This document shows positions 13,232 through 34,222 of a DNA stretch of 35,087 nucleotides, one piece after another. The notes under the pieces were generated by a model, which worked only from the letters and a program-made list of their open reading frames with translations, was not told the origin of the DNA and did not search any database. Each line of letters opens with the position of its first letter. Position 1 is the stretch's first letter. The DNA is from Magnetococcales bacterium (GTDB lineage Bacteria; Pseudomonadota; Magnetococcia; Magnetococcales; JADFZT01): the NCBI GenBank assembly GCA_015232395.1, contig JADFZT010000053.1, forward strand, positions 1-35,087. The letters run 5' to 3'. The position numbers were made by a program, and so were the translations under genes.

Positions 13232-16200
13232 TCAATCAACCACCGTGGGATCGGTTCCCGCCTGGAACTCTTCCAGGTTGGTAGCGCCATCGCCATCGGT
13301 GTCATCAGTGGCATCATTGGCATCCAGGGAATCAAGCCCATACTGATCTTCGAAGGTATCGGTCATACCGTCGCCATCATCATCGGTATCGGCGTTGTCA
13401 CCGGTACCGTCCGAATCGGTATCCGTCGTTTCACTGCCATCCAAGGGGAAGGCGTCCGAGCCATCTTCCACCCCGTCGCCATCATCATCGGTATCGGCGT
13501 TGTCACCGGTACCGTCCGAATCGGTATCCGTCGTTTCAGTCGCATCCAAGGGGAAGGCGTCCGAGCCATCCTCTACCCCATCACCATCGGTATCGGTATC
13601 AGCGTTGTCGCCGATGCCATCACCATCGGTGTCGGTGGTTTCAGTCGCATCCAAGGGGAAGGCGTCCGAGCCATCCTCTACCCCATCACCATCGGTATCG
13701 GTATCAGCGTTGTCGCCGATGCCATCACCATCGGTATCGGTGGTTTCAGAGCTATCCAGGGGGAAGGCGTCCGAACCATCCTCTACCCCGTCGCCATCAT
13801 CATCGGTATCGGCGTTGTCACCGGTACCATCACCATCGGTATCGGTGGTTTCACTGCTATCCAAGGGGAAGGCGTCCGAGCCATCCTCCACCCCGTCGCC
13901 ATCGTCATCGGTATCGGCGTTGTCACCGGTGCCGTCCGAATCGGTATCAGTGGTTTCGCTGCTATCCAAGGGGAAGGCGTCCGAGCCATCCACCAAGCCA
14001 TCGCCATCGTCGTCGGTATCGGTGTTGTCACCGGTGCCATCCCCATCGGTATCGGTGGTTTCCGTGGCATCATTGGGGAAGGCGTCTTCGCTGTCGGATA
14101 CGCCGTCGCCATCGGTATCGGTGTCGGCATTGTCGCCCACGCCATCGCCATCGGTATCCGTGGTTTCGGTCGCATCCAGAGGGAAGGCATCCTCGGAATC
14201 TGCCACCCCGTCACCATCATCATCGCTGTCGCTGTTGTTACCGATGCCATCCAGATCGGTATCGGTGGTTTCCGTGGCATCCAGAGGGAAGCTGTCCAGG
14301 AGATCCGACACCCCGTCGCCATCGTCGTCGTCATCGCTGTTGTTGCCGATGCCATCCGAATCGGTATCAGTGATTTCCGTCGCATCCAGAGGGAAAGCAT
14401 CCTCGGAATCTTCGACCCCGTCACCATCATCATCGGTGTCGCTGTTATCCCCTATGCCGTCGCCATCGGTATCGGTGGTTTCGGTCTCATCGCTGGGGAA
14501 GGCATCCTCGGTGTCATCGACCCCATCGCCGTCGGCGTCATAACCGGAGCAGGTGGAGACGGTCAAATCGAGATTGTAGGCGGCGATGGTTTCGTCGTTG
14601 CTGCGCTCCTCGATGCGGACATAATAGGTTCCAGGGGCCAGGGGATCGTCGCAGTCGTAGCTGATTTGGGAAAATTCGCCTGTGCCGCTGTCGTCGTTGG
14701 TATAAAGCTCTTCGAGATCTTCGTCGTAGAGCATCATCAGGGTGTCGCCGCTCTCACCGGAGGTTTCCAGGGTGACGGCTGAGGTCACTGTCAGCTCAAA
14801 TGCGGCCCAGTCCAGATCCTCGACGGGATCGATGGAGTGGTTTTGGGTGGTACCGGCGGTGAGAATGGAAGCATCGTCGCTGGTGTCGTCGGATTCGAAG
14901 TCATCCAACCCTTCCTCGCCGTCGCCATCGCCATCCCCGTCGCCATCGCCACTGGAACCGTCTCCATCCAGATCAAAGGTTTGCACCAGGAAGACCGCCA
15001 TCTCCGCCCGGTTGATATCGAGGCTGGGACAAAAATAGCTCTCATCTCCACACTCCCGGCCCGATTCGATGGTGCCGTCGGCAAACCCCTCATTAGCCAG
15101 CTGCTCGATGAATCCCGCTGCCCAATAGTCAGCGGAAATATCATCGTACACCGTGCCGGTGGCCTCCGGTGGCACATAGTCAGAGCCATATTTGGTCCGC
15201 AGCAGGAAGATCGCCATCTCCGAGCGGGTGATCTCCCGGCTGGGGCAAAAGTTGTCGGAGTCGCAACCGCTGGTGATGCCCAGGCGGGAAAGCTCCTCTA
15301 CATAGTTGCCCGCCCAAAAACTGGCGGGAACATCGTCGAAATAGCTCCCCGTGGCATCCTCCGGCATCTCATCGGCACCATACTGGGCCCGAAGCAGAAA
15401 GATCGCCATCTCCGCCCGTTGCAGGGTGTTGTCCGGACAGTAGTTGCTGGCGTCACAGCCGGAGGTAATACCGGTATCGGCCATGATTTCGATCTCGTCG
15501 ATGGCCCAATGGCTCTCGTAGACATCTTCAAAGCGGGTGTTGGATTCCAGCAGGAAGGGGGTGCCACTGTCGGTCACCACCTCCACCGGTGTGGATTGAT
15601 TGACCTGGGTGCCGTCACCCACCTGGCCGTAGAGATTGTGGCCCCAGGCATAGAGGCTGCCGGAATCGTCCCAGCCCACGGTGTGATAACCACCGGTGGC
15701 GATCCCATCCATTCCGGTCACCAGGGTCTCCACCGGTAGCTTGCTGTCATCCTCGGTGCCGGTACCCAGCTGGCCTTTTTCGTTGTGGCCCCAGGCCATC
15801 ACCGTGCCGTCGGAGAGCATGGCCATGGTTTGGCCCTCACCCCCGGCTGAAATGGCAACCACATCCCCCAAACCGGTCACTTCATCGGGGTAGGCGCTGT
15901 TGCTCTGGGTGCCATCTCCCAGCTGGCCATAGGCGTTGTTCCCCCAGGTCCAGACCGTGCCATCGGTGCCCATGGCGACGGAGTGATAAAAACCGGCGTC
16001 TATGGCGATGGCATCCTCTACGTTGGAGACATGGACCGGGGTGTTGGAGTTGCTGGTGGAGCCGTTACCCAGCTGGCCTTTATTGTTGGAGCCCCAAGCA
16101 CGCAGGGTGCCGTTGGTTTTGAGGGCGATGGTATGGTTGGAGCCAGCTGCGATGGCGGAGACATAGAGCAGATTGCTCACCCGGGTGGGCATGGAGATGT

Positions 16201-16708
16201 AGGAGTTGACATAGCCGTTACCGATCTGCCCTGCGGCGTTGTCTCCCCAGGCATAGACCGTTCCGTCTGAGGTCAGCGCAGCGGAGTGTTGCTGGCCGGC
16301 TGCAACAGCGACCACATTGTCCAGGTTGTCCACCTCCACGGGGGTGTACCTATCCCGGGTGGTGCGATCCCCCAGCTGGCCGTATCCGTTGTAGCCCCAG
16401 GACATGACAGTGCCGTCGGAAAGCACGGCCAGGGAGTGGTAAAAGCCGGCGGATATTGCCACCACGTCAGAAAGCCCCTCCACCTGAACCGGCGTCAGGG
16501 CGTTATCGGTGGTGCCGTCCCCCAGCTGGCCAAAATCGTTGCGCCCCCAGCCCCACACCGTGCCGTCGGCGCGTAAAACCAGGGTGTGGGCGTCGTTGGC
16601 CGAAACCATGGACTCCACAGCTCCGGCGGGGGGTATCCATATAAACAAGGATAGAAGGGTGAAGAGACGAAAGGGGGTAGGGCGCGTACGCAAAGCATTG
16701 CTGATCAT
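13232..16708 (-). CDS. Exported RCC1 propeller protein with SLH, PPC and calcium-binding repeats
   Basis: A 1158-residue protein with a signal peptide (cleavage near PAGAVES, about residue 30). The ATG follows CAGGGAG. Residues about 33-385 hold seven RCC1-type repeats (WGxNxxGQLGDGT, SxGxxHSxAL), enough for a closed propeller. Residues about 393-590 hold three SLH-like modules (RAEMAIFLL), each with a cysteine pair such as GCDASNYCP. Residues about 610-722 are a PPC domain. From 724 onward comes a calcium-binding array of 35-residue units (DTDGDGxGDNxDTDxDGDGV, then [12 protein letters not shown]), and the last 44 residues resemble an EF-hand-like end ([13 protein letters not shown]). It is likely secreted or attached to the cell surface; its ligand is unknown. 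A 230-bp leader separates the start from paired inverted repeats at 16941-16975. Confidence 0.9.
13424..14473 (-). repeat. Ten 105-bp tandem coding repeats (calcium-binding DTDGDG units)
   Basis: Ten full 105-bp units, each coding for 35 residues, lie within the RCC1 surface-protein gene, with a partial unit on each side (14474-14539 and about 13364-13423). Units at the 5' end of the array differ more (NNSD, SDLLDSF) while those near the 3' end are close to identical: units 8 and 9 (13529-13738) encode the same peptide and differ by very few bases. This is the pattern left by recent duplication through recombination or slippage. Aspartates at alternate positions fit thrombospondin type 3-like calcium sites. 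Confidence 0.9.
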
Positions 16709-18058: not shown

Positions 18059-19594
18059 TTATTCCAAAGGTGTACTTTTGGTCACGTGAAATTGATAGAT
18101 TTTCGGGGGATGCGATTGCAGAATCATGCTGACGGAACCATGGGGGCTCTCCACCCGGGGAATCCGCAGCACCCCCCCTTCCAGGGTAGCGCTTTCAGCT
18201 GTCACCTCTCCCCCCACCGTATCGGGGTTGGAGCGAGCATCCCCCGGATTGGTCAGGGCATCATACTCTTCCAGGTTGGTGTAGCCATCCCCGTCAAAGT
18301 CATCTTCGGCGTCGTCGGGATTGCAGCGGTCGAGGAGATTGTCGGCTTCAAACTCATCGGGCAGACCGTCGTTATCGTCGTCTTCATCCTCTTCATCAGC
18401 CAGCCCATCCTCATCGCAATCTTCGATCACCTCCTCGGCATGGAGGGAGAAGGGTTCGCCATTTGCATCTACGACCTGAACGGGGGAATAGCGCGTTGAA
18501 AATGTACCATCGCCCAATTCCCCATATCCATTGTACCCCCAACTCCAAACGGCTCCATTGTTGTCAACGACGACCATATGCATACCATTTGAAGAAATGG
18601 CCATCATATTGAAAAGATCAGGAACCTCCACAGGGGAATGGTGGACCTGGGCACTCCCCACACCCAATATACCACTGCTATTCTCTCCCCATGTCCAAAC
18701 GGTTCCATCGGATTTTAAGACGGCACTGCTTTGACAAAAGGCTGAAACAGTTTCTACATCCGTGATATCGAGTACAGCTACGGGATTTTCTTTCTCCTCA
18801 GTGGTTCCATCACCCAGTTGCCCGGTAAAATTCCCCCCAGAAGCCATCAGTTGGCCGTTGCTCTGCAGAGCGAGGGTGTGCCAGCACCCAACGGAAACAT
18901 CGATGATTTCCTCCCCAAAAGCTTCCGTGGAAACCGGAAGGGCATGAACACCGATCCCACCGGTGCCAAGTTGGCCATAAGAGTTATCTCCCCAAACCCA
19001 AAGCGTTCCATCTGATGCAACGGCAGCGGCATGTCCATCTCCCGCAGAAACAGAAACGATATCCTCTGGACCAACCACCTTTTCCGGTGAAAATCGGTAC
19101 TGATTAAAATCAATGGATCCATCTCCCAATCGGCCTGAGCTCCTGGACCCCCAAGCCATCAAGCCGCCATCTCTTTGCAGGGCGACGGCAAAGCTATTGC
19201 CGCCAGTAATGGCAACCACCTCTTCCAAGCCCGGAATCTGTAGAGGATCGGTGCTGAAGGATGTCACTGTTCCATTGCCAAGCTGCCCCAAGGCGTTGTT
19301 CCCCCATGCCCAAACAGTGCCATCGGACTTGACGGCATAACTGGCATTGTAGGCAGCACCAATGGCTACGACATCGGAAAGAGCTGGAACTTCAGCCGGA
19401 TTGAAATGATTGCGAGTCGTTCCATCTCCAAGCTGACCGTAATTATTGTATCCCCATGACCAAACAGTGCCGTTGGATTTCAACGCAAGGGTGTGATAGA
19501 TCCCCGTGGCCACCATCGGCTCCACAGCCATGGCCATTGAAGGCCCAAAGGCGAGCAGGAAAAGCAGGATGGAAAGAGGATATTTCATGATCAT
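18059..19594 (-). CDS. Exported seven-bladed RCC1 propeller protein with calcium-binding tail
   Basis: A 511-residue protein with a clear signal peptide (LSILLFLLAFGPSMAMA, cleavage before VEP at about residue 24). It starts MIMK; the ribosome site is weak and the third codon is an alternative start. Residues about 26-385 contain seven RCC1-type repeats ([15 protein letters not shown] and variants). Residues about 393-455 are an acidic DxDxDG region (DEDGLADEED, DFDGDGYTNLEEY) of the calcium-binding, EF-hand or thrombospondin-3-like type. The last 55 residues are a beta-rich end not recognised. It lacks the SLH and PPC parts of its neighbour, so it may be the simpler ancestral form or a separate secreted partner. 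GTTAAC inverted repeats lie about 80 bp upstream and double hairpins directly downstream. Confidence 0.9.
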   Translation of the reverse strand: MIMKYPLSILLFLLAFGPSMAMAVEPMVATGIYHTLALKSNGTVWSWGYNNYGQLGDGTTRNHFNPAEVPALSDVVAIGAAYNASYAVKSDGTVWAWGNNALGQLGNGTVTSFSTDPLQIPGLEEVVAITGGNSFAVALQRDGGLMAWGSRSSGRLGDGSIDFNQYRFSPEKVVGPEDIVSVSAGDGHAAAVASDGTLWVWGDNSYGQLGTGGIGVHALPVSTEAFGEEIIDVSVGCWHTLALQSNGQLMASGGNFTGQLGDGTTEEKENPVAVLDITDVETVSAFCQSSAVLKSDGTVWTWGENSSGILGVGSAQVHHSPVEVPDLFNMMAISSNGMHMVVVDNNGAVWSWGYNGYGELGDGTFSTRYSPVQVVDANGEPFSLHAEEVIEDCDEDGLADEEDEDDDNDGLPDEFEADNLLDRCNPDDAEDDFDGDGYTNLEEYDALTNPGDARSNPDTVGGEVTAESATLEGGVLRIPRVESPHGSVSMILQSHPPKIYQFHVTKSTPLE

Positions 19595-20023: not shown

Positions 20024-21580
20024 ATGCCCGATACCCCCCCCGCAGAGCCCCTGATGGATCGGGCGAGGCTTTATCAACACCTCAACTCCCCCTGGGCCTT
20101 CGTTCTGGTGATGGTTCTTTTGGGAGCCTGGTTCAGCTGGCTCCATCAGGATTATCCAAACGTCCGCAACAGTCTGCTCTATTCCGAGATTTCCCTGGCA
20201 GCCAACGCCTATGGCCCCCTCTCCCAAGAGACCCTGGAGCGGGCTTCCAACAAACCCATGGGCTTTTCCATTCTGGCCGCCCCCCTGGTGCAGTGGCTGG
20301 GGAGCGATCCCGGATTGAAGGTAGCCTCTGTGATCGGCACCACCTTTTATGGGGTGGTGTCGCTGCTGTTTCTGATACGTATGGTGGGACGTGAAGAGGC
20401 TTTCTCCGAGCAGGTGGTGCGTCTCGGGATCATTCTCACCCTCTTCAACCCCTTGCTCCTCTATCAGTTTGTCTCCGCCTATCCCGACACCCTCTTTGCC
20501 GGGCTCTTTCTGCTGGCCCTGCTACTGGCTGATCGATCTCTCTCCCGGGAAGCAAGCTTATGGCACGGAACAGGATTTGCCGGGATCACCCTGGCCAGCG
20601 TCTGGATCAAGCATCACGGTTTCGTGCTGATTCCGATCTTTATCTGGCTCCTCATCGCCCGAAGAGAGACGCTACAGTGGCAATGGCAACAGCATCGAGC
20701 CCGATTCTGGCAGGGGGTGATCCCCTTTTTGCTGCTCCTGATCTTTCTGCTGGCAGCTCACAAGGGGCTCCTCCCCACCTTCAACATGTCCAAAAATCAG
20801 GGCAATTTTCTCTCGGGGAAGGATCGATTGGAAATCCTGGGGGATAATCTCGAAAATCTCGGGCTCTATCTCTCCATCACCCTGGGGCTTCTCACCCCGC
20901 TGCTCCTGAGGCGACCTCCCCGGGCTTGGCGTCAAAGCTGGCAGTGGCCGGGAGTGGTGATCATTTTCACGCTACCCCTGCTCTTCTATCATGGGGCGAT
21001 CTACAACAGCCGCTACTATCTGCCCATCGCCCCGCTGCTCGCCTGGTGGGTGGCGGGGGGGCTCGCGCGCTTCAAGCCCCGGACACAAAACATCCTCCTG
21101 GCCGGATTCCTCTTCTGTAACGGCTTCACCATCGTTTATTATGATTTTCCAGAGGCCCATCAACTGCTCCAACCCCATCTCAGCCTGCCGGAGATGGACA
21201 ATCTGCGCCTGGCGACCGAGCAACCCCGGGAGAAGGAAAATCTCGACTTGATCAAAGCCCTGGCCCCAGCCCACGATAACACCCTGATTTTTTTAAGCCG
21301 CTATTATTGGGGCAAAGCCGCCCGAGCCTGGGAGCGGGCGGGGCTTTTTCCGGACAATCTCACCATCCACTACGCCTCCTCCTGGAGAGCCAGCCTGCCC
21401 CGACGCTTCCATTTCAAGCGGGCGGTGATCTATGAATATGTCGGCACCGGACCTGAGCGCAACAAGCTGGATCGGGATCGATCGATCAAGCGGTATCTGA
21501 AAAAAATCAACGACCGGCTCTACCTGCTCCAGCCCCTGCGCCGTATTCACCTCAAAAAAGCCCCTTCCCCCAAGGAGTAA
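20024..21580 (+). CDS. Polytopic GT-C-like (PMT/ArnT-type) glycosyltransferase
   Basis: A 518-residue inner-membrane protein with about ten hydrophobic segments (for example FVLVMVLLGAWF near residue 30, LGIILTLFNPLLLY near 140, TLFAGLFLLALLLA near 165). The pattern of a short N-terminal helix, a first periplasmic loop with acidic residues (HQDYPNVRNSLLYSE) and a C-terminal soluble part of about 130 residues fits GT-C enzymes that move a sugar from a polyprenyl-phosphate donor to a lipid or protein on the periplasmic side. The exact substrate cannot be read from the sequence. It is followed after 4 bp by a GT2 gene and a LAB_N gene; such trios make and use undecaprenyl-phosphate sugars. The ATG at 20024 has only a weak ribosome site. 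Confidence 0.72.
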   Translation: MPDTPPAEPLMDRARLYQHLNSPWAFVLVMVLLGAWFSWLHQDYPNVRNSLLYSEISLAANAYGPLSQETLERASNKPMGFSILAAPLVQWLGSDPGLKVASVIGTTFYGVVSLLFLIRMVGREEAFSEQVVRLGIILTLFNPLLLYQFVSAYPDTLFAGLFLLALLLADRSLSREASLWHGTGFAGITLASVWIKHHGFVLIPIFIWLLIARRETLQWQWQQHRARFWQGVIPFLLLLIFLLAAHKGLLPTFNMSKNQGNFLSGKDRLEILGDNLENLGLYLSITLGLLTPLLLRRPPRAWRQSWQWPGVVIIFTLPLLFYHGAIYNSRYYLPIAPLLAWWVAGGLARFKPRTQNILLAGFLFCNGFTIVYYDFPEAHQLLQPHLSLPEMDNLRLATEQPREKENLDLIKALAPAHDNTLIFLSRYYWGKAARAWERAGLFPDNLTIHYASSWRASLPRRFHFKRAVIYEYVGTGPERNKLDRDRSIKRYLKKINDRLYLLQPLRRIHLKKAPSPKE

Positions 21581-21584
21581 CCCC

Positions 21585-22394
21585 GTGGCTCACGCTGAAA
21601 CAACCTTTTCGGTGGTGATTCCGGTGCGGGACGAAGCAGGCAACATCGGTGCCCTGATCGACGAAATCCGCCGGGTGCTGGAGGGTCATTCCTGGTATGA
21701 AATCGTCGTGGTGGATGATGGCAGCCGGGATAACACCTGGGGGGAGCTACAGGCTCGGGTCGGTCATGGGGGAGCCAAAGGGGCTGAAAAAAATAGCGGC
21801 AAGGAGCAAGAAGGGAAGCGGGAAGGGGGGCTGCTACGACTCTGCCGCCACCGGGAGGCGTGTGGTCAGAGCCGGGCGCTTTTGACCGGTATTCAGGCCG
21901 CCAACCAGCCCTGGATCGTTACCCTGGATGGGGATGGCCAAAACGATCCGGCGGACATTCCCAAACTCTGGAACCAGCTCACCCGGCCGGGGCCGATTGA
22001 TCCCCTTCACGTTCTCATGGGTCACCGGGTCAACCGCCAGGACAGCATCTCCAAAAAGCTCGCTTCGCGCCTGGGCAACCGCATCCGCGCCCGGATATTA
22101 CAGGATGCCACCCCGGATTCCGGCTGTGGGCTCAAACTTTTTTCCCGTGCGCTTTTTTTGCAGCTCCCCTATTTCGACCACATGCACCGCTTTTTGCCCG
22201 CTCTTTTCAAGCGCCACGGGGCCACCTTCCGCTCCGTTCCAGTGAACCACCGACCCCGGCAGCAAGGACAATCCCACTACGGCATTCTGGATCGACTGGC
22301 AGCAGGCCTGGTGGATCTGCTCGGCGTCCTCTGGCTTCTCAAACGCAGCCACCTCCCGACCCTGATCGAAGAGGAAAGTAACCTTGAACGATAA
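21585..22394 (+). CDS. Family 2 glycosyltransferase (polyprenyl-phosphate sugar synthase type)
   Basis: A 269-residue GT-A enzyme starting with GTG behind AAGGAG. SVVIPVRDEAGNI opens the Rossmann-like fold, VVDDGSRDNT contains nucleotide-binding Asp44-Asp45, and TLDGDGQNDPADIP carries the DxD pair Asp115 and Asp117. SGCGLKLFSR and the HRPRQQGQSHYG region are typical of dolichol/undecaprenyl-phosphate mannosyl- or glucosyltransferases of the DPM1/ArnC/GtrB group. Unlike ArnC or GtrB it lacks C-terminal membrane helices. A charged, Gly/Lys-rich insert (about residues 60-83) interrupts the domain between the first motifs and looks like a flexible loop. It presumably makes the lipid-linked sugar used by the upstream GT-C enzyme. 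Confidence 0.87.
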   Translation: MAHAETTFSVVIPVRDEAGNIGALIDEIRRVLEGHSWYEIVVVDDGSRDNTWGELQARVGHGGAKGAEKNSGKEQEGKREGGLLRLCRHREACGQSRALLTGIQAANQPWIVTLDGDGQNDPADIPKLWNQLTRPGPIDPLHVLMGHRVNRQDSISKKLASRLGNRIRARILQDATPDSGCGLKLFSRALFLQLPYFDHMHRFLPALFKRHGATFRSVPVNHRPRQQGQSHYGILDRLAAGLVDLLGVLWLLKRSHLPTLIEEESNLER

Positions 22395-22680
22395 CGAAAC
22401 CCTCTGGCTCATGGTGGGCTTTACCGGGCAAGCGCTCTTTTCCGCCCGCTTTGTGGTGCAATATCTGGCGAGCGAAAAGCTGAAAAAAAGCGTCATTCCG
22501 GAAGCCTTCTGGTATTTCAGCCTGGCGGGGGGGGTGACCCTCTTCAGCTATGCCCTCCATCGCCTGGATCCGGTCTTCATCGTGGGGCAGGGGGCGGGTC
22601 TATTTATCTACGGACGCAACCTGCAATTCATTCTCCGGGAAAGAAAAGAACGCAAAACCCGGGAGGCGGTAGAATCATAG
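22384..22680 (+). CDS. LAB_N (lipid A biosynthesis N-terminal domain) membrane protein
   Basis: A 98-residue protein with three membrane helices (about 8-27, 41-60, 64-82). It starts with TTG at 22384, behind GAGGAAAG, and overlaps the previous gene by 11 bp. The pattern SARFVVQYLASEK, then IPEAFWYFSLAGG, then GQGAGLFIYGRNL matches the LAB_N family, found alone or fused to lipid A or undecaprenyl-sugar enzymes. Its biochemical role is unsettled, but the family goes with polyprenyl-phosphate glycosyltransferases such as the two genes upstream. Here it probably completes a membrane sugar-transfer module. Confidence 0.85.
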   Translation: MNDNETLWLMVGFTGQALFSARFVVQYLASEKLKKSVIPEAFWYFSLAGGVTLFSYALHRLDPVFIVGQGAGLFIYGRNLQFILRERKERKTREAVES

Positions 22681-22691
22681 GAGGAACGGCC

Positions 22692-24275
22692 ATGAAAAAA
22701 ACGCTTTCAGCCAGCCTCATCGCCCTGATTTTTTATCTCGGGGCCATCTCCGACAATTTGGCCTGGATGCCAAGATATCCGGGCACCCTCCAAGCCTCTG
22801 GAAAAAGCGTCCGCCCCTCACCCATTGCCGGTTCCTGGTATCCGGGGGAGCCCAAAAAACTCAACTCCTATCTGGACCGGATGATCCATGAAGCCGAGCC
22901 CGAAGCGCTCGCGCCAGAGGCTGGAAAAATCCGCGCCCTCATCCTCCCCCATGCCGGCTATCGCTATTCCGGTGCCACCGCCGCAGCCGGAATCAAGCAC
23001 CTCTCAGGCCAAAGCTTCAAACGGGTCGTGGTCGTGGGGCCGGGGCACCGCTTCGGCTTCAAAGGCTTTTCCACCCCCCAGGTAACCCACTATCAAACCC
23101 CCCTGGGAGAAATCCCCCTGGACCGGGAGGCCCAACAGCAGCTCCTAAGCCACCCCCTTTTCAACGCCATACCCCAAGCCCATCAGCGGGAACACAGCAT
23201 TGAAATGACACTGCCCCTGCTGCAAAAGACGCTTTCCAAGGGCTGGAAACTGTTACCGATTCTGGTGGGACGGGTGAGCGCCAAGGGGTATGCCGAAGCC
23301 GCCCTGCAACTAAAACCCCTGCTGGATGAAGAGACCCTGCTCATCATCTCCGGGGATTTTACCCACTACGGCCCCAACTATGATTTTCTACCCTTTCCCA
23401 AAGATGATCAGGTGGCCCAAAATATCCGCAAGCTGGATATGGGGGCTTGGGAGCAGATCGTTGCCCGAGATCCCGACGGCTTTCAAAACCATCGCCGGGA
23501 GAGCCAAATCACCGCCTGTGCCCATGGGCCGGTGATGCTGCTGTTGAATCTCCTCCCTCCTGACACCACCCCCACGCTGGTGCAGTATGATACCAGCGGC
23601 CAACTGACCGATGATTTTACCAACTCCGTCAGCTATCTCAGCGCCACCTTTCAAACCCCCCACCCCCTGAGCACCCTGCCGCCGGTGGCCGACCTCAGCG
23701 AAACAGAGATGCGCCTGCTCCATCAGTTGGCGACCCGCACCTTGAAAGAAGCGGTGGCAAAGGGCACACAAAAAATTTCAGTGGCCGATATCGCCCGGGG
23801 GTTTGATATTCCGGAACGACTCAAGCAACCGAGCGGCGCTTTTGTCACCTTGAAAAAAGAGGGAAATCTCAGAGGCTGCATCGGCGCCATCTGGCCCACC
23901 CAGCCCCTCTACCAGGCGGTGATCAAAAATGCCGTCAACGCCGCCTTGCGGGATCATCGCTTTCGCCCGGTGCAAAAAAGCGAACTGGCCGGGATGGAGG
24001 TGGAGGTGAGCGTTCTTTCCCCCATGAAAGCCATCGATTCCGCACAAGAGTTTCAGGTGGGGGAACATGGCATCCTGCTGACCAAGCGGGGACGCCGGGC
24101 GGTCTATCTGCCGGAGGTGGCCCCGGAACAGGGGTGGGATCGGGAGACCACCCTGGGCTATCTTTCCCGCAAGGCAGGCCTCCCAACCACCGCCTGGAAA
24201 CAGGGGGCCACCTTTGAAATTTTCACCTCCCAAAAATGGAGCGCCCCTTTCGACGCTCCAGAAAGCGAAAAATAA
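22692..24275 (+). CDS. Exported MEMO-AMMECR1 fusion (AmmeMemoRadiSam proteins B and A)
   Basis: A 527-residue protein behind GAGGAA. Residues 1-25 are a basic, hydrophobic leader (KKTLSASLIALIFYLGAIS), so the product is predicted to be exported or membrane-anchored. Residues about 38-320 are a MEMO domain: His87 (PHAGYRYSG), His119 (GPGHRFG) and Cys276 (CAHGP) line up with the metal ligands of human MEMO1 (His49, His81, Cys244), and Asp222/His225 (GDFTHYG) with its Asp189/His192. Residues about 335-520 are an AMMECR1 domain with the signature LRGCIG (393-398). The two domains are known partners of a radical SAM enzyme, which in this window lies at 33203-34183. The biochemical reaction of the set is not established. 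It sits 11 bp behind the LAB_N gene and so appears to belong to the same transcript. Confidence 0.92.
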   Translation: MKKTLSASLIALIFYLGAISDNLAWMPRYPGTLQASGKSVRPSPIAGSWYPGEPKKLNSYLDRMIHEAEPEALAPEAGKIRALILPHAGYRYSGATAAAGIKHLSGQSFKRVVVVGPGHRFGFKGFSTPQVTHYQTPLGEIPLDREAQQQLLSHPLFNAIPQAHQREHSIEMTLPLLQKTLSKGWKLLPILVGRVSAKGYAEAALQLKPLLDEETLLIISGDFTHYGPNYDFLPFPKDDQVAQNIRKLDMGAWEQIVARDPDGFQNHRRESQITACAHGPVMLLLNLLPPDTTPTLVQYDTSGQLTDDFTNSVSYLSATFQTPHPLSTLPPVADLSETEMRLLHQLATRTLKEAVAKGTQKISVADIARGFDIPERLKQPSGAFVTLKKEGNLRGCIGAIWPTQPLYQAVIKNAVNAALRDHRFRPVQKSELAGMEVEVSVLSPMKAIDSAQEFQVGEHGILLTKRGRRAVYLPEVAPEQGWDRETTLGYLSRKAGLPTTAWKQGATFEIFTSQKWSAPFDAPESEK

Positions 24276-25222: not shown

Positions 25223-26542
25223 ATGAATGCCATCTTTTTTGCCCTCGTTTTAATCGCCTTCCTCACGGCAGGATTTCGGCAACTCAGCTGGATTCCCAAC
25301 GATAACGCCTCACCCATGGAACTCCTGACCAACGGCATGGTGGATGCCGCAGGAGGCTCCGTGGATTTGGCGCTGGGATTGGTGGGCGTAATGGCACTCT
25401 TCTTGGGACTCATGAAAGTAGCGGAAGCAGGCGGATTACTCACCATCCTGGCCCGCCTGATTCGACCCCTCATGGTGCGACTCTTCCCCGAAGTACCCCC
25501 GGACCACCCGGCCATGGGAGCCATGATCCTCAATATGGCAGCGAATGCCCTGGGATTGGGCAATGCCGCCACCCCCTTCGGCATCCGCGCCATGCAGGAG
25601 CTGGATCGCCTCAATCCAGTCAAAGGCACCGCCACCAACTCCATGGCGCTCTTCCTCGCCATCAACACCTCCAGCGTCACCCTGCTCCCCACCGGAGTGA
25701 TCGCCTTGCGCGCCTCCGCAGGCTCCATGGATCCCGCCGCCATCCTCCCCACCACCCTCTTCGCCACCTTCTGCTCCACCATCGTCGCCATCCTGGCAGC
25801 TAAAACCTATCAGCGCTTTTTCCCCATAGAGCCCATAGCCGCTGAGGCTGATTCCACCGAATCAAACCAACCCACCTCCCAAACGACCACCAAAGAGAGT
25901 GATACCGAAACCTTGGCCGAGGCCCACGCCATCAGTGCCGGTTATCCCACCTGGGTTTCAGTGGTCGCCCTGCTCACCGTGGTGGGATTCATTCCCCTCA
26001 CCATCTTTCACGGACGAGCCATCTCCCCCTGGGTGATCCCCTCCCTGATGGTCGCGCTGCTGGGGTTTGGTGTGATCAAAGGGGTGCGGGTCTACGAAGT
26101 GTTTGTGGAGGGCGCCAAGGAAGGCTTTCAGGTGGCGATTCGCATCATTCCCTATCTGGTGGCCATCCTGGTGGCGGTGGGGATGTTTCGGGCGAGTGGC
26201 GCTTTGGGCTATCTGGTCAATCTCATCGGGCCTGCCACCTCTGCCGTGGGTCTTCCCGCCGAAGCCCTGCCCATGGCTTTGCTGCGCCCCCTTTCCGGCT
26301 CCGGAGCCTACGGCATCCTGGCCTCCCTGCTGGAAGATCCCACCATCGGCCCGGACAGCTATACCGGCTTGCTGGTCTCCACCTTTCAGGGCTCTACCGA
26401 AACAACCTTTTATGTGCTCGCGGTCTATTTTGGCGCGGTGCAGATCCGCCGCACCCGCCACGCCCTGGGGGCCGCCCTCACCGCAGATGTGACCGGCATC
26501 ATCGCAGCAGTGTTCATCTGCTCCCTGCTGTTTGCCGTCTGA
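25223..26542 (+). CDS. SpmA-SpmB fusion (nucleoside-recognition domain membrane protein)
   Basis: A 439-residue inner-membrane protein. The N-terminal half (about 1-200) resembles SpmA (NGMVDAAGGSVDLALGLVG, NMAANALGLGNAATPFGI, AINTSSVTLLPTGVIALR). The C-terminal half (about 230-439) resembles SpmB (VRVYEVFVEGAKEGFQVAIR, IIPYLVAILVAVGMFRASGAL, LRPLSGSGAYGIL, FQGSTETTFYVLAVYFGAV). In Bacillus the two are separate spore-maturation genes; fused or paired forms occur widely in non-sporulating Gram-negatives, where the function, probably transport, is unknown. A charged loop of about 35 residues (about 208-242) links the halves. It stands alone behind a terminator, with a weak ribosome site. Confidence 0.88.
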   Translation: MNAIFFALVLIAFLTAGFRQLSWIPNDNASPMELLTNGMVDAAGGSVDLALGLVGVMALFLGLMKVAEAGGLLTILARLIRPLMVRLFPEVPPDHPAMGAMILNMAANALGLGNAATPFGIRAMQELDRLNPVKGTATNSMALFLAINTSSVTLLPTGVIALRASAGSMDPAAILPTTLFATFCSTIVAILAAKTYQRFFPIEPIAAEADSTESNQPTSQTTTKESDTETLAEAHAISAGYPTWVSVVALLTVVGFIPLTIFHGRAISPWVIPSLMVALLGFGVIKGVRVYEVFVEGAKEGFQVAIRIIPYLVAILVAVGMFRASGALGYLVNLIGPATSAVGLPAEALPMALLRPLSGSGAYGILASLLEDPTIGPDSYTGLLVSTFQGSTETTFYVLAVYFGAVQIRRTRHALGAALTADVTGIIAAVFICSLLFAV

Positions 26543-27202: not shown

Positions 27203-27280
27203 GAGAGGGGTTTCAGTCAAAAACCAACCCCCTGAAAATCCGGGGTGGCGTCATTCAAACAGTCAAAGACGGCGATAAAA

Positions 27281-27841
27281 ATGGCAGAACTTTTGGATAC
27301 CAGGGATGGGGTAGTGGTTTCGGCGGCCTCCCTTCAGGAAGAGTGGCAGCGCAACATGGAACGGGTGAAGTGGGTCTCCCCGGTGGATTTTACCGCTGAA
27401 TTTTTGGACACCCTCTCCTATGGCCCCACCGAGGTGGAGTTTCGGGTGGTCAATCTGGAGCCGTTTCGTCTTTTGCGCAGGCGCACCTTCCGCAAGCATA
27501 TTTTCAATGCCCGAATTTATCTCTGGCAACTGGCGGTGAGCCAAACACGCCCCAAGCGCGCCCGGGAGATCAAACAGCGGTTTCGATCTCTTCTGCTAAC
27601 CAGCCTCAACAATTCCCAACCCCGCTTCGATGCCATCACCTCGGAACTCACCCTGCTGGACTCTCTCCTGGACAACCTCTCCGAAGAGGGATTTCTCTCC
27701 ATGGCCCACTACATCACCCAACGGGTGTGGGGGGATCTGGAAAAAAATCCCGGACTCCTGCCCCGCTCCATCCGTCTGGGCATGTGGCTCGATGAAATCT
27801 ATCAGGATTATGTAGAACGCGCCGAATGCCTGCGGCCTTGA
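27281..27841 (+). CDS. Hypothetical helical protein
   Basis: A 186-residue soluble protein I do not recognise. The ATG at 27281 is chosen because the reading frame looks protein-like from there (MAELLDTRDGVVVSAASLQ); a GTG 36 bp upstream is possible. It is mostly helical and rich in Arg, Leu and Glu, with a basic central segment (RRRTFRKHIFNARIYLWQLA) and an acidic C-terminal half. There are no cysteine pairs, membrane segments or signal peptide. It follows rubrerythrin by about 80 bp and converges with the toxin-antitoxin operon. Its composition and codon use look like a real gene. Confidence 0.65.
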   Translation: MAELLDTRDGVVVSAASLQEEWQRNMERVKWVSPVDFTAEFLDTLSYGPTEVEFRVVNLEPFRLLRRRTFRKHIFNARIYLWQLAVSQTRPKRAREIKQRFRSLLLTSLNNSQPRFDAITSELTLLDSLLDNLSEEGFLSMAHYITQRVWGDLEKNPGLLPRSIRLGMWLDEIYQDYVERAECLRP

Positions 27842-27881: not shown

Positions 27882-28598
27882 TCAATCGGTTGTCCAATCA
27901 ACAGGTATCCACCGATCCCCCTCTTCTTCCCCATACCTGAAATATTTGTCGATACGCTGGCCATTCCAGTGATATTGGAAGTGGGGCCCCTGGATGGGAA
28001 TGGTCACCACATCAGGCCAAAAGGCCGCCAGGCACGTTCCTCCCGGATGGCGCACGCTGCGATAAACAAGGCCATCGCTTCCCCCCTCCCGGAGTTGTTT
28101 CCCCAGCGCCCAACCAGGTTGATAATCATCCGGATCATGGCAAGCATCATACCCTTGGCGAATATCATGGAGGGTAGCATCCAATCGGCCAATGAGGGTA
28201 CGGAAATCCTGGGCGTGGGGGGGATCGTTGGACTCACCATAAAACCGCCCCATGTGATGGATGGTTTCCCGTAAAGCGGTCTCCAACGCCTTGCCAGCAT
28301 AATAGATCCCATATGAACCATCACTAAAGCGGGAACCGTGAGGGTTTATATGGGTGAAGGGTGCCATGACCCAACTGGCTCCCGGCCCTCCTACACGCCG
28401 TTCGGGAGGAACCAGATGAATTTGGCCGATTTCATCACGCAGCCGATCATTGGTCATCCCTTCGAGTTCGGCCAGTAGTTCCCAATCTTCCGGGGGTGAG
28501 ACCCCTTCAAACAGATCGATGGGTGGATAGCGAGAGGGGATGATCCGATAGCTTTTTCGCCAACGAAATCGGTTGGTATCCGGAAAACTCAAGACCAC
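27882..28598 (-). CDS. RES-domain toxin (NAD+-degrading type)
   Basis: A 238-residue protein with the RES fold: WRKSYRIIPSRYPP near the N-terminus, GSRFSDGSYGIYYAGKALET (residues 88-107) with ALRETI after it, and GGSDGLVYRSVRHPGGTCLA near the C-terminus. RES toxins such as MbcT and the Xre-RES proteins deplete NAD+, and the conserved Arg, Tyr and Glu of that group appear present. The GTG at 28598 overlaps the antitoxin stop by 10 bp; a TTG at 28592 is an alternative. The frame stays open upstream through the antitoxin gene, but that part is not RES-like. Together with the gene before it, it forms an antitoxin-first type II pair. Confidence 0.87.
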   Translation of the reverse strand: MVLSFPDTNRFRWRKSYRIIPSRYPPIDLFEGVSPPEDWELLAELEGMTNDRLRDEIGQIHLVPPERRVGGPGASWVMAPFTHINPHGSRFSDGSYGIYYAGKALETALRETIHHMGRFYGESNDPPHAQDFRTLIGRLDATLHDIRQGYDACHDPDDYQPGWALGKQLREGGSDGLVYRSVRHPGGTCLAAFWPDVVTIPIQGPHFQYHWNGQRIDKYFRYGEEEGDRWIPVDWTTD

Positions 28599-28987
28599 CC
28601 GCCCCGGGTGGCATCCAACCATTGGCGGATAAAGGCCAGATCGGTGATTTCGCCTGCCAGAAGGCGCTCCCGGGGGGATTGCCCGTTGAGGCGGGTATTG
28701 GGCTGGTTTATCCAACGATTACCAAGCCCGGGATCCCGATAGAGGATCCGTAAATTTTTATATATTCCAAGGATATAGCTAATACGTGTCAAGGTATCGT
28801 GAGGAAGTGTTGCGGGCTGCTTTTTTTTCCAGTTGTAGAAGGTGGAGTTAGCAGGCCTCCCTAGCAAAACCCGCGCCTCATCCGAAGTGAGCCGCCACTC
28901 CTCCATAATTTTCATAAAGGCAGACAAACCAGCTTGCGCAATGGTTTTGCTTGGTTTTTTTGAAGGTATGGCCACGGCGACGGACAT
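28589..28987 (-). CDS. Xre/MbcA/ParS-type antitoxin (DUF2384)
   Basis: A 132-residue antitoxin with a good ribosome site (CAGGGAG). Residues about 20-75 are a helix-turn-helix region (LTSDEARVLLGRPANSTFYN), and residues about 80-132 match the C-terminal toxin-binding domain of the MbcA/ParS/Xre group (LGNRWINQPNTRLNGQSPRE, then FIRQWLDATRGGW). It should neutralise the RES toxin encoded behind it with a 10-bp overlap and repress their shared promoter in the AT-rich stretch at about 29000-29090. The N-terminal 16 residues (SVAVAIPSKKPSK) are a basic tail. Confidence 0.9.
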   Translation of the reverse strand: MSVAVAIPSKKPSKTIAQAGLSAFMKIMEEWRLTSDEARVLLGRPANSTFYNWKKKQPATLPHDTLTRISYILGIYKNLRILYRDPGLGNRWINQPNTRLNGQSPRERLLAGEITDLAFIRQWLDATRGGWS

Positions 28988-29106: not shown

Positions 29107-30885
29107 TCAGGGCACATTGATGGGCCGGGCGTGACGCCGCTTGCCCCGCTCCAGCAGCAGGGTATAAAAGCCCGCCGCAACCCCTTCCGGTTTCCAGGTG
29201 AGGGTTTGGGGGCCGGTTTTTTCGATCCGGTCATTGAGAATCACCGCAATCTCTTCTCCCGCCTGATCCAGCACCGACAGCTTGAGATCCCCTGATCGGA
29301 AATTGTTAAAGCCGATTTCCACGCTCTGTTTGGAAAAGGAGGTTCTGGGCTGGTAGAGGTTGAACCCCCGCCCCATGGCCCGATGATCCTCCCGCATGGT
29401 TTGGATGAACTCCTCGGAATAGGTCTTGGCATCAGAGTTGGCGGCACCACCGGTTTCATAAAAGGGGTCTCCCAGCTCCAGCCAGATCCAGTTGGAAAAG
29501 TCCGGGGCGTGGATCACATGGGCGTCCGAGGTGATGTGCAGGGTCAGGTGAGCGCTGTTGGGAATGTCGTCGATGGTGCCGTTTTCGGTGGTATAGGTGT
29601 GGCCATGGCGACCGGAAGCGTGGGTGATGGAGCCATCGGGAAAGCCCATGGCCACCACATAATAGCCGTCGATATAGTTGTCGGCAAAATAGGTATAGTG
29701 GACATATTTGGTCAGGATCAGCTCCCCCATATCCTCCAGGGTGAGGGGGACATCCAGGGAGGTGACCACCCCGGGCTGGAAGGGTTTGGAGTCGAGCCCT
29801 TCGGAGCCCACCGCCCGCTTATTGTGGGGGGTGATGAGTACATCGGTGAAAACCTTGGTAAAACTCGCCCGATCCGAGCCTTCGGGGTTGCCCTGAAATT
29901 CGCTGGGATCCAGGGTGATATCCACTGAGGGAATCACATGGCCCTGCTCGTTTTCCCGGATGATCTCTTCCAGATAAGCGGCCTTGATCTCATCCAGATC
30001 CTCTCCCTCCACCAGCTGCACATGGGCTCCGGGCCGCCAGAGGGTTTCGTCCCAGCGGTTGGCCCGGCGCATGATCAGCTCATCCTCAATGCCCTCCTGC
30101 ACATCATAGGAAAAGTGGAACCAATAATCCCCGGAGACTCCATTGACGGTGTTGATAAAATGGGTCTGATGCGCTTCACTGAAGCTGTAATCGATCTCGA
30201 TATTGTTGTCAGCAGCCACCGCCAGGAGGGCATCGAACATGGAAAAATAGCCGGGGGCGAAGATATCGGGGCGCACGGAAGTGATCGCGCCTTCTTCCGG
30301 CTCGAAGGGATACCACACCCCATTGATCTCCACCTGGGCGCCAGGGATGGGAATCGCCTCAGCAGTGCCATCCAGCACGCCGGGGGTGGCCAGTTGGGCC
30401 AGGGCCATGGTGGCGGGAAAGTGATGACAATCGGTACAGTCGTTATCGGCAGGAACCCGGGTGTGGCGCTCTGGAAACTGTTTGGTGCGGATCCCTTCCA
30501 GGTTGCCCCCTTCGATGTGGCAGCTGTTGCAGTTGGTCTGATCGGGAAACCAGTGCCAGGTGCGGCTCATCATCTCCCCGACCTTGACGATATAGGCCCC
30601 CTCTTCAAGATCGTTGACGGCGATGTTGCCCGCACTGTTGCTTTGGGTCGCCAGCACCTCTTCCCCAGCCTCATTATACCAGGAGAGGGCTACACTGGAC
30701 ATGACCGCGCCGCTCTCCCCCCCGGAAAACACGGTGCCAGCCGCCTTGAATTCATCGTGGCATTCGGAGCAGTCGGTCCCGGCAAAATGCTCCCGCGTCG
30801 ATCCCTCATCCTCACTCCCGCAGGTGGTGAGAACGAAAAGAAACAGACACCCCAGCAAAACAGTTCCCAAGCGATTGCGGACCAA
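29107..30885 (-). CDS. Trihaem c-type cytochrome lipoprotein of unknown function
   Basis: A 592-residue exported protein. It starts with TTG behind CAGGGAG. The leader ends in a lipobox-like LTTC (Cys22), so the mature protein is probably a lipoprotein. Three haem-binding motifs lie near the N-terminus: CSECH (39-43), CNSCH (119-123) and CTDCH (150-154); the stretch between the first two looks like a carboxypeptidase-regulatory-type beta domain (SAGNIAVNDLEEGAYIVKVG). Residues about 170-510 are unassigned. The last 80 residues resemble a FlgD/sorting-type Ig fold (LYQPRTSFSKQSVEIGFNN, GDLKLSVLDQAGEEI). It is likely a periplasmic or surface electron-transfer protein. It lies 14 bp behind a nucleotidyltransferase gene on the same strand, which is an odd pairing. 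Confidence 0.82.
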   Translation of the reverse strand: MVRNRLGTVLLGCLFLFVLTTCGSEDEGSTREHFAGTDCSECHDEFKAAGTVFSGGESGAVMSSVALSWYNEAGEEVLATQSNSAGNIAVNDLEEGAYIVKVGEMMSRTWHWFPDQTNCNSCHIEGGNLEGIRTKQFPERHTRVPADNDCTDCHHFPATMALAQLATPGVLDGTAEAIPIPGAQVEINGVWYPFEPEEGAITSVRPDIFAPGYFSMFDALLAVAADNNIEIDYSFSEAHQTHFINTVNGVSGDYWFHFSYDVQEGIEDELIMRRANRWDETLWRPGAHVQLVEGEDLDEIKAAYLEEIIRENEQGHVIPSVDITLDPSEFQGNPEGSDRASFTKVFTDVLITPHNKRAVGSEGLDSKPFQPGVVTSLDVPLTLEDMGELILTKYVHYTYFADNYIDGYYVVAMGFPDGSITHASGRHGHTYTTENGTIDDIPNSAHLTLHITSDAHVIHAPDFSNWIWLELGDPFYETGGAANSDAKTYSEEFIQTMREDHRAMGRGFNLYQPRTSFSKQSVEIGFNNFRSGDLKLSVLDQAGEEIAVILNDRIEKTGPQTLTWKPEGVAAGFYTLLLERGKRRHARPINVP

Positions 30886-31232: not shown

Positions 31233-31551
31233 AACCCTTCCCTGTCACTCTATTCACAAGCCCCGAACAAAGCATGCTGGATTCCAGACTAGAGGGACAT
31301 CTCTTCCCATGCAAGCAGCGAGAGGCGACCCTTCCTGCCCGATAGCCCCGGGAAGAGGCACTTTTTCCACATTGAATGAACGCTTCCCCCGGTTCATCCT
31401 TAATACATTCACCATTTCCTTCAGCCTTGGGTCCGCCTCACCAGACGTGAAAAAATGGGTGCCAAAGTCCAGGCCCAATGGGAAGGCCCAATCGTGAAGA
31501 ATGGAATTAACGAGACGCTTTTAGAAAATCTATCCCACGAAGGAGATGACC
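31233..31551. other. Divergent gap with a protein-like minus-strand open frame
   Basis: About 320 bp between the divergent MNT gene and the cytochrome gene. On the minus strand a frame is open from 31520 to 31254 and reads protein-like at first (VNSILHDWAFPLGLDFGTHF, then RLKEMVNVLRMN). It has no good start: an ATG lies at 31478 and a TTG near 31487. It lies directly upstream of the MNT gene. It could be the remnant of a gene or chance; I do not recognise it. Promoters for both flanking genes should also lie here. Confidence 0.25.
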
Positions 31552-32930: not shown

Positions 32931-33206
32931 CTATCCCGCCAGATCGTGGGGGGCATAAAAATCAGCTTCCTTCAGCTCCCGCTCCACAGGCCCCTGGCTC
33001 ACCCCACCAGGGGTCACCGTGGTGGCGACACCAGCCAATCCCAAAGCCCCGATTCCCCCCAAAAAGGCGCGGCGGGATTGATTCCCGGTTCCAACCGCTC
33101 CCCGAGACTCTTTTTTCCCGCAGCCTGGATCGTTAACCTCTGGATCAGCATCCGGTGCCATCGCGTTGGATGCCTCCCGACTTGGATCACTCCCTTGGGT
33201 GCTCAT
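32931..33206 (-). CDS. Small twin-arginine signal protein
   Basis: A 91-residue protein whose ATG overlaps the stop of the radical SAM gene by 4 bp (ATGA). After a polar N-terminal region of about 42 residues, SRRAFLGGIGALGLAGVATT is a Tat-type signal with the twin arginines, followed by only about 30 residues that end EADFYAPHDLAG. Its size resembles tiny Tat-signal proteins found next to formate dehydrogenase or other redox enzymes, which are thought to help export a partner or to anchor. The long N-terminal extension before the twin arginines is unusual. The tight coupling suggests that it works with the radical SAM protein or its product; this is inference. Confidence 0.8.
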   Translation of the reverse strand: MSTQGSDPSREASNAMAPDADPEVNDPGCGKKESRGAVGTGNQSRRAFLGGIGALGLAGVATTVTPGGVSQGPVERELKEADFYAPHDLAG

Positions 33207-34183
33207 GTCCAAACCCCTGCAATGGCCTGCTGGCAGGTGGGGCAGACTCCCCCTGGCAGCAGGTTGTTTTGTTGAATGCGAAAGCCCGCCCGCTCAATCA
33301 ACAGGGTGTTATCCCGGGGGCAGCGGGTGGACTCCCCTTCGTTACCCAGAAGATTGCCGATATAGACGTGTTCAAGCCCCACCTCCAGCGCTTCGTTGCG
33401 ACAGCGGATGAGAATTTCTCCGGGGGTGGGGGGAAGATTTTGCATGCGATATTGGGGGTGAAACCGGCTGAGGTGCAAAGGCACCCGGGGCCCCAACTCA
33501 TTGTGGATCCAGCGGGCCATGCGCCGCACCATGGAGAGGTCGTCGTTGAGGGTTGGAATGATCAGGTTGGTGATCTCCAGCCACACCCCGGCCTCTTTTA
33601 AAATCACCAGGGCATCCAACACCGGTTGCAGGGTGGCGCCACACACCTCTCTATAAAATCGATCATCAAACGCCTTCAGATCCACATTGGCCGCATCCAG
33701 CAGCCGACTCAGCGCTTGCAGCGGCTCCCGATTGACATAACCTGCTGAAACCAAAACATTCTTAAGCCCCACCTCCCGCGCTGCAAGGGAGGTCTCCCGG
33801 ACATATTCATAAAAAACAAGGGGTTCGGAATAGGTGTAGGCGATGGATTGGCATCTCTGCTGGCGGGCGGTGGCGACCACCCTCTGGGGAGGGGCGTTGT
33901 AGATCTCCTCCATTTCGGCGCCACTGCGTTGGGAGAGCTGCCAGTTTTGGCAATTTTTACAGTGGAGGTTGCAGCCGGCTGTGGCGATGGAAAAGATCGG
34001 CGAGCCCGGCAAAAAATGAAACAGGGGCTTCTTTTCCATGGGATCGATATGCACCGAGGAGGGACGGCCAAAGGTGGTGGCGATGAGCTTCCCTTCCAGG
34101 TTGACCCGCACCCGGCAATCCCCGGCCCCCCCTTCGGGGATGGCACAATAGCGGGGGCAGAGTTCACAGATAACGCTGGACAT
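33203..34183 (-). CDS. amrS: AmmeMemoRadiSam system radical SAM enzyme
   Basis: A 326-residue cytosolic enzyme. The ATG at 34183 lies behind AGGGAGG. An N-terminal cysteine group (CELCPRYC...GDC, Cys6, Cys9, Cys13, Cys23) precedes the radical SAM motif Cys71-x3-Cys75-x2-Cys78 (GCNLHCKNCQNWQLS), which binds the 4Fe-4S cluster. Typical family segments follow: AYTYSEPLVFYEY, VSAGYVNREPL, NVDLKAFDDRFYREVCGATL, LEITNLIIPTLND, HLSRFHPQYRM. The C-terminus has a zinc-ribbon-like pair (CPRDN and CPTCQ). This is the radical SAM member of the set whose MEMO and AMMECR1 parts are fused at 22692-24275. Its substrate is not known. It overlaps the small Tat-signal gene by 4 bp. Confidence 0.93.
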   Translation of the reverse strand: MSSVICELCPRYCAIPEGGAGDCRVRVNLEGKLIATTFGRPSSVHIDPMEKKPLFHFLPGSPIFSIATAGCNLHCKNCQNWQLSQRSGAEMEEIYNAPPQRVVATARQQRCQSIAYTYSEPLVFYEYVRETSLAAREVGLKNVLVSAGYVNREPLQALSRLLDAANVDLKAFDDRFYREVCGATLQPVLDALVILKEAGVWLEITNLIIPTLNDDLSMVRRMARWIHNELGPRVPLHLSRFHPQYRMQNLPPTPGEILIRCRNEALEVGLEHVYIGNLLGNEGESTRCPRDNTLLIERAGFRIQQNNLLPGGVCPTCQQAIAGVWT

Positions 34184-34222
34184 CACACACCTCCCTGGCG
34201 GGAGTTGACTCCCCGCTTGGGT

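Follow-up and report, generated by a model that had tools for sequence, protein, structure and literature searches.

The question raised by this locus is whether a protein that joins a MEMO domain to an AMMECR1 domain, and begins with a hydrophobic segment, leaves the cytoplasm and is parted from a radical SAM partner that remains within. MEMO and AMMECR1, whose conservation extends to humans, have both been associated with disease; human MEMO1 has been described as cytosolic (PMC11081632). In the window (the whole stretch of DNA analysed, 35,087 nucleotides from a Magnetococcales bacterium), the gene concerned has the following features.

The fusion gene and its domains

22692..24275, forward strand: signal peptide-MEMO-AMMECR1 fusion gene (527 aa, ATG start)
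22679..22684, forward strand: Shine-Dalgarno sequence AGGAGG, 7 nt 5′ of the fusion-gene ATG
22692..22751, forward strand: predicted Sec-type signal peptide, residues 1-20 (MKK and a hydrophobic core; cleavage at AIS/DN, the slash indicating the cut here and below)
22752..22811, forward strand: unstructured linker, residues 21-40 of the fusion (pLDDT below 50 for residues 1-34)
22824..23645, forward strand: MEMO domain (PF01875, TIGR04336), residues 45-318, from profile scores and a fold match
22950..22952, forward strand: His87, metal ligand (human H49), from alignment with human MEMO1
23046..23048, forward strand: His119, metal ligand (human H81), from alignment with human MEMO1
23517..23519, forward strand: Cys276, metal ligand (human C244), from alignment; one of the two cysteines of the fusion
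23724..24239, forward strand: AMMECR1 domain (PF01871, TIGR04335), residues 345-516, from profile scores and fold matches
23877..23879, forward strand: Cys396 of RGCIG, the sole cysteine of the fusion besides Cys276

The MEMO domain scored 214 bits with TIGR04336 (cut-off, 26) and 183 bits with PF01875 (cut-off, 27), and the AMMECR1 domain, with RGCIG at residues 394-398, scored 164 bits with TIGR04335 (cut-off, 99). A structure model of the fusion, obtained with an alignment of 35 relatives, had a mean pLDDT of 90.6, and its residues 1-34 were disordered, as would be expected for a leader followed by a linker. The modelled MEMO domain was matched by fold to human MEMO1 (7kq8, E = 3e-24) and the modelled AMMECR1 domain to 1zq7 and 1vaj, with archaeal AMMECR1 structures among the matches. 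The intact metal site described in an earlier note on this DNA was recovered by alignment, since H87, H119, and C276 correspond to H49, H81, and C244 of human MEMO1, the reported iron and copper ligands of that protein (PMC11081632). Assignment to the extradiol dioxygenases (LigB/DesB type, with His-His-Glu/Asp iron ligands) was considered and rejected, because the third ligand is Cys276 and the likeness is one of fold alone.

The N-terminal leader

The leader sequence (MKKTLSASLIALIFYLGAISDNLA) was scored by rule and has the parts of a Sec signal peptide for signal peptidase I, namely a positive n-region (charge, +2), a hydrophobic core (mean hydropathy over 12 residues, 2.40), and small residues at positions -3 and -1. 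The earlier note had given it 25 hydrophobic residues; the leader is present, and this length was somewhat overstated, since signal peptidase I is likely to cut after residue 20 (AIS/DN, an ordinary rather than a textbook site) and the hydrophobicity is over by residue 24 (22763). The core hydropathy is similar to that of two clearly exported RCC1-repeat proteins of the window (2.34 and 2.15), and the values for the leaderless MEMO paralogue of the same genome and for the radical SAM enzyme of the window were 0.52 and 1.28, respectively.

Homologues were searched in 48 genomes of the order and their N-termini were inspected, the close homologues being 47-54% identical. Contrary to the outcome set beforehand as speaking against export, namely that most close homologues have no leader, one is kept by 17 of the 20 assessable close homologues (window included), in 14 as a hydrophobic leader and in three (family f2, G002-G004) as a long hydrophobic N-terminal membrane segment with no clear cleavage site. 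The leader sequences differ and their physical pattern is common. Among the three exceptions, the leader is broken by a frameshift or stop in G045 and G035, and the protein on contig 1 of G014 is intact and without leader. Nucleotide substitution ratios of the leaders were too noisy for use.

Leaderless MEMO/AMMECR1 paralogues, fused or separate and with 30-39% identity, are encoded in most of the same genomes. They begin 3-6 residues ahead of the MEMO domain. Good ribosome sites precede most of them, and in 11 of 30 fused ones an in-frame stop leaves fewer than 12 residues upstream, so that there is no room for a leader. The best 12-residue hydropathy upstream of MEMO had a median of 2.38 in the 20 close homologues versus 0.62 in 24 leaderless paralogues (Mann-Whitney p = 1e-6, indicative only because the compared sequences are related). 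In the window genome, leaderless MEMO and AMMECR1 are encoded separately by overlapping genes on contig 54, and a second radical SAM gene is located on contig 76; this genome holds a second, complete, leaderless cytosolic set beside the exported one. The leader was missing from nearly all members of two sets from other Pseudomonadota, and one scan of named genomes returned only two loci, both from spirochaetes and both leaderless.

Phylogeny and cysteine content

The tree unites the leader-bearing proteins with one degenerate family in a single group (support, 95/88), separated by a branch of 1.23 from the leaderless group (support, 100/98), and the leaderless proteins of the order group with those of other Pseudomonadota. 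The median number of cysteines was 2 (1-3) in 16 fusions of the leader clade and 6-9 cysteines were counted in 30 leaderless fusions of the order, with no overlap, a contrast that represents one evolutionary split and not 46 independent points. Exactly two cysteines are present in 13 of the 16 mature leader-clade fusions, the pair kept being the metal ligand Cys276 and Cys396 of RGC. The low number fits an oxidising compartment, where spare thiols would be a liability. Outside the order, four of about 25 leaderless fusions also have two cysteines, and a fusion from Segatella has a leader with its cysteines retained, which speaks against a universal two-cysteine signature; a membrane-anchored fusion from another class (G798), outside the clade, again has exactly two.

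The degenerate family (f6: G008-G011; L024, L025, L027, L028) consists of exported-clade members without leader, metal ligands, or RGCIG. Its proteins have 3-6 cysteines, more than their leader-bearing relatives, despite the loss of the functional ones, and are nonetheless kept in four genomes.

The radical SAM partner

33203..34186, reverse strand: AmmeMemoRadiSam radical SAM enzyme of the second type (rSAM2; TIGR04337, 387 bits; no leader)

This gene, located 9 kb from the fusion gene on the opposite strand, encodes no leader, in agreement with the earlier note, by which the partner has no signal. Leaderless rSAM2 proteins (TIGR04337, 367-397 bits) were found in 11 of the 48 genomes, all 11 of which have the exported protein, and the rSAM2 gene lies directly upstream of the fusion gene in nine of them (hypergeometric probability of the co-occurrence about 5e-7, calculated by hand and ignoring relatedness). 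In G035, G045, and G028, rSAM2 was not found and AMMECR1 is lost; the leader is broken in G035 and G045, and a decayed remnant of rSAM2 remains upstream in G028. In G007, rSAM2 is followed by a gene for AMMECR1 alone, itself provided with a signal peptide (MKWFSWLLLPWWMISLALA/QES), and a separate exported fusion has kept the metal ligands and has RGSMG in place of RGCIG, so that the two exported proteins would jointly make one complete set. Because of the rearrangement in G007 and the losses in the other three genomes, rSAM2, AMMECR1, and the leader tend toward joint retention or joint loss, and rSAM2 and the exported protein quite probably form one working unit. The exported protein occurs without rSAM2 in five genomes (G041, G040, G004, G003, and G002, two of them incomplete), so rSAM2 is not strictly needed; in these genomes the other radical SAM enzyme may serve, or rSAM2 may sit in unassembled sequence.

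Selenocysteine in rSAM2 was considered, as an in-frame TGA is present in nearly all matches, and was rejected, because the sequence past the TGA is not conserved among the 11 genes and the TGA is therefore a stop codon. No useful gene context was found for radical SAM relatives on plasmids without MEMO. At L133 1690-3183 and L134 8107-9612, radical SAM proteins of a third AmmeMemoRadiSam type (294-304 bits) were observed, which are extended at the C-terminus by about 150 residues without any Pfam family match.

Genes following the fusion gene

25223..26542, forward strand: integral membrane GATE-domain protein (SpmA-SpmB type; PF07670)
27245..27841, forward strand: uncharacterised protein family, located after the GATE gene in relatives (no Pfam family above cut-off)

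In 14 genomes, the GATE gene and the uncharacterised gene come after the fusion gene, and in family f14 there is an overlap of 4 bp. The GATE gene is present in 41 of the 48 genomes, with or without the exported protein; because it is order-wide, a role of the GATE protein as dedicated transporter of the system was not upheld and its link to the exported protein is suggestive only. A function as passage for the product is possible.

Proposed arrangement and alternatives

Export of the fusion protein, as predicted in the earlier note, is very likely, being supported by the conserved leader, the distinct clade, the loss of non-essential cysteines, and the decay together with the partner. We regard the fusion, with reasonable confidence, as a Sec-exported and probably periplasmic MEMO-AMMECR1 enzyme that forms one half of an AmmeMemoRadiSam module split by the membrane. 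The B and A parts of the system would be fused behind a cleavable signal peptide, and the order would keep this second module beside the ordinary cytosolic one. The inner membrane would divide the module, with rSAM2 on its cytosolic side and the metal-binding MEMO, together with AMMECR1, on its outer face. Radical SAM chemistry requires a reducing cytosol, so the two halves of such a module must communicate across the membrane. Most likely rSAM2 would carry out an early step on a compound that is accessible from the far side of the membrane or transferred there, and the reaction would be finished outside by MEMO-AMMECR1 in an iron- or copper-dependent redox step. The export and the compartment in this scheme, like its substrate and sequence of steps, are our reading of the leader, the intact metal site, the gene pairing, and the co-loss. 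Hand-over of the rSAM2 product across the membrane to the exported protein is put forward tentatively, as somewhat short of probable. A membrane-split radical SAM pathway, in which the cytosolic enzyme makes or primes something that the periplasmic MEMO-AMMECR1 completes, possibly with the GATE protein as passage, is rather doubtful; if it were true, the substrate of MEMO/AMMECR1 would be a compound that crosses the membrane or is linked to a lipid.

The association of rSAM2 with AMMECR1 is compatible both with the hand-over of a compound and with modification of the protein itself, a possibility missing from the earlier note, which had named action of MEMO on the periplasmic side or receipt of something made inside. 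In the case of modification, the MEMO-AMMECR1 precursor would be altered by the radical SAM enzyme while still cytosolic or during its passage through Sec, and would then work outside in modified form. The loss of AMMECR1 from three genomes without rSAM2 and the position of rSAM2 beside the exported AMMECR1-only gene in G007 agree with such a modification, as do the retention of Cys396 of RGCIG as one of two conserved cysteines and the weak similarity of rSAM2 to glycyl-radical activases, and precedents are the treatment of exported sulfatases by anaerobic sulfatase-maturing enzymes (PMC10154612) and of signal-peptide-bearing bufferin precursors by MNIO enzymes (PMC12452194). However, RGCIG is conserved to the same extent among cytosolic AMMECR1 proteins, which are free of export, and is thus no marker of the exported form; for this reason we lean slightly to a membrane-crossing compound. 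The leaders also share no recognition motif, and exported proteins bearing RGCIG occur without rSAM2, though rSAM1 could substitute there. Modification before export is judged rather unlikely.

Two further explanations dispense with export. The hydrophobic N-terminus could be an uncleaved anchor that holds MEMO on the cytosolic face near a membrane substrate, for which the long segment of family f2, with no clear cleavage site, might be cited, together with the link of MEMO systems to isoprenoid modification that is reportedly made in a comparative paper by Burroughs et al. 2019 (JBC). An anchor of this orientation is very improbable, since most leaders carry positive charges ahead of the hydrophobic core, so that the positive-inside rule places the N-terminus inside and MEMO outside, several leaders end in good cleavage motifs (THA/AE, VQA/AQ, and ALA/QE), and the cysteine depletion fits the oxidising side. 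Alternatively, the true start could lie downstream, at the ATG of residue 26, leaving the leader untranslated and the protein an ordinary cytosolic AmmeMemoRadiSam protein like the intact leaderless homologue in G014. This is scarcely credible, since a ribosome-binding site is found at the first ATG only and is absent at the alternative starts (residues 23 and 26), leaders of this kind are conserved in 17 homologues, and the AMMECR1-only gene of G007 has a leader despite encoding no MEMO domain.

Relation to known systems

All three components of AmmeMemoRadiSam (TIGR04335, A; TIGR04336, B; TIGR04337, radical SAM; amrB and amrS in RefSeq) were found here above curated cut-offs, and the pairing with a radical SAM gene is typical of the system, as in the Ideonella and Segatella plasmid loci. 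Unlike the usual system, the one here has a predicted exported B-A fusion and a predicted cytosolic S enzyme, and the fusion belongs to a clade apart from the cytosolic copies of its own order and of other Pseudomonadota. The components are those of a known, uncharacterised system; no description of an exported B-A with a cytosolic S was found in the literature searched, which lay outside Burroughs et al. 2019.

Human MEMO1 has the same fold as the window protein (TM-score, 0.85 over the human chain) and the same His-His-Cys ligands, and is matched by it with 108 bits (residues 6-254) versus 68 bits (residues 5-191) for a cytosolic fusion of the order; unlike the window protein, it has neither an AMMECR1 domain nor a signal peptide. 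Sulfatase maturase is a cytosolic radical SAM enzyme. The combination of such an enzyme with an exported one, as in the anaerobic sulfatase-maturing enzymes (PMC10154612), is the same arrangement as that proposed here, with no membership by sequence claimed.

MEMO proteins that are exported or anchored are also encoded by a Bacteroidota plasmid and by members of two other classes of Pseudomonadota, so that export is recurrent and not unique. AmrB of Segatella hominis starts with MRKIVLVVLLTMCMMMEA before MEMO-AMMECR1 and has amrS adjacent, the record naming the gene only as AmrB; the MEMO-AMMECR1 fusion of G798 has an N-terminal membrane anchor; G240 (L158, another class) has a leader and a MEMO domain fused to a PGA_cap (CapA-like) domain; and G637 (L183/L215, another class) has a leader on a MEMO-AMMECR1 fusion without the three metal ligands and RGCIG, which from its sequence is a predicted exported pseudoenzyme. 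The last three come from unannotated genomes. Each of these cases seems to be a lineage of its own or a degenerate form.

An exported MEMO-AMMECR1 with a partner inside would mean that the substrate, or the modified protein, is reachable from both sides of the membrane, which would narrow the possible chemistry of MEMO/AMMECR1. The occurrence of cytosolic and exported sets side by side, with natural losses and rearrangements, would make the question of communication testable, and a periplasmic enzyme would be an accessible place for seeking the product.

Other genes in the window

A three-gene set of the lipid-A type (20024-22680, forward strand) ends 11 nt before the fusion gene and encodes a hydrophobic protein of ArnT-like appearance with no match in Pfam, a family 2 glycosyltransferase, and a LAB_N protein; these genes were rejected as partners, since relatives do not keep them next to the fusion gene. 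A UshA-like protein (31546-32871, forward strand) has PCGC where the selenoprotein form has PCGU and is fused to a cytochrome c554-type haem domain, and its gene adjoins a multihaem lipoprotein-like gene (29107-30885, reverse strand). The UshA-like and multihaem cytochrome genes were likewise rejected as partners, being near the fusion gene in no relative. An exported protein of 1158 aa (13232-16708, reverse strand) combines RCC1 repeats with S-layer homology domains and an extended series of thrombospondin type 3 repeats of the calcium-binding type, and a second RCC1 protein is encoded at 18059-19594 (reverse strand). At 27882-28987 (reverse strand), a RES-domain toxin lies beside an Xre/MbcA/ParS-type antitoxin, the two forming a toxin-antitoxin pair of the typical RES-Xre kind.
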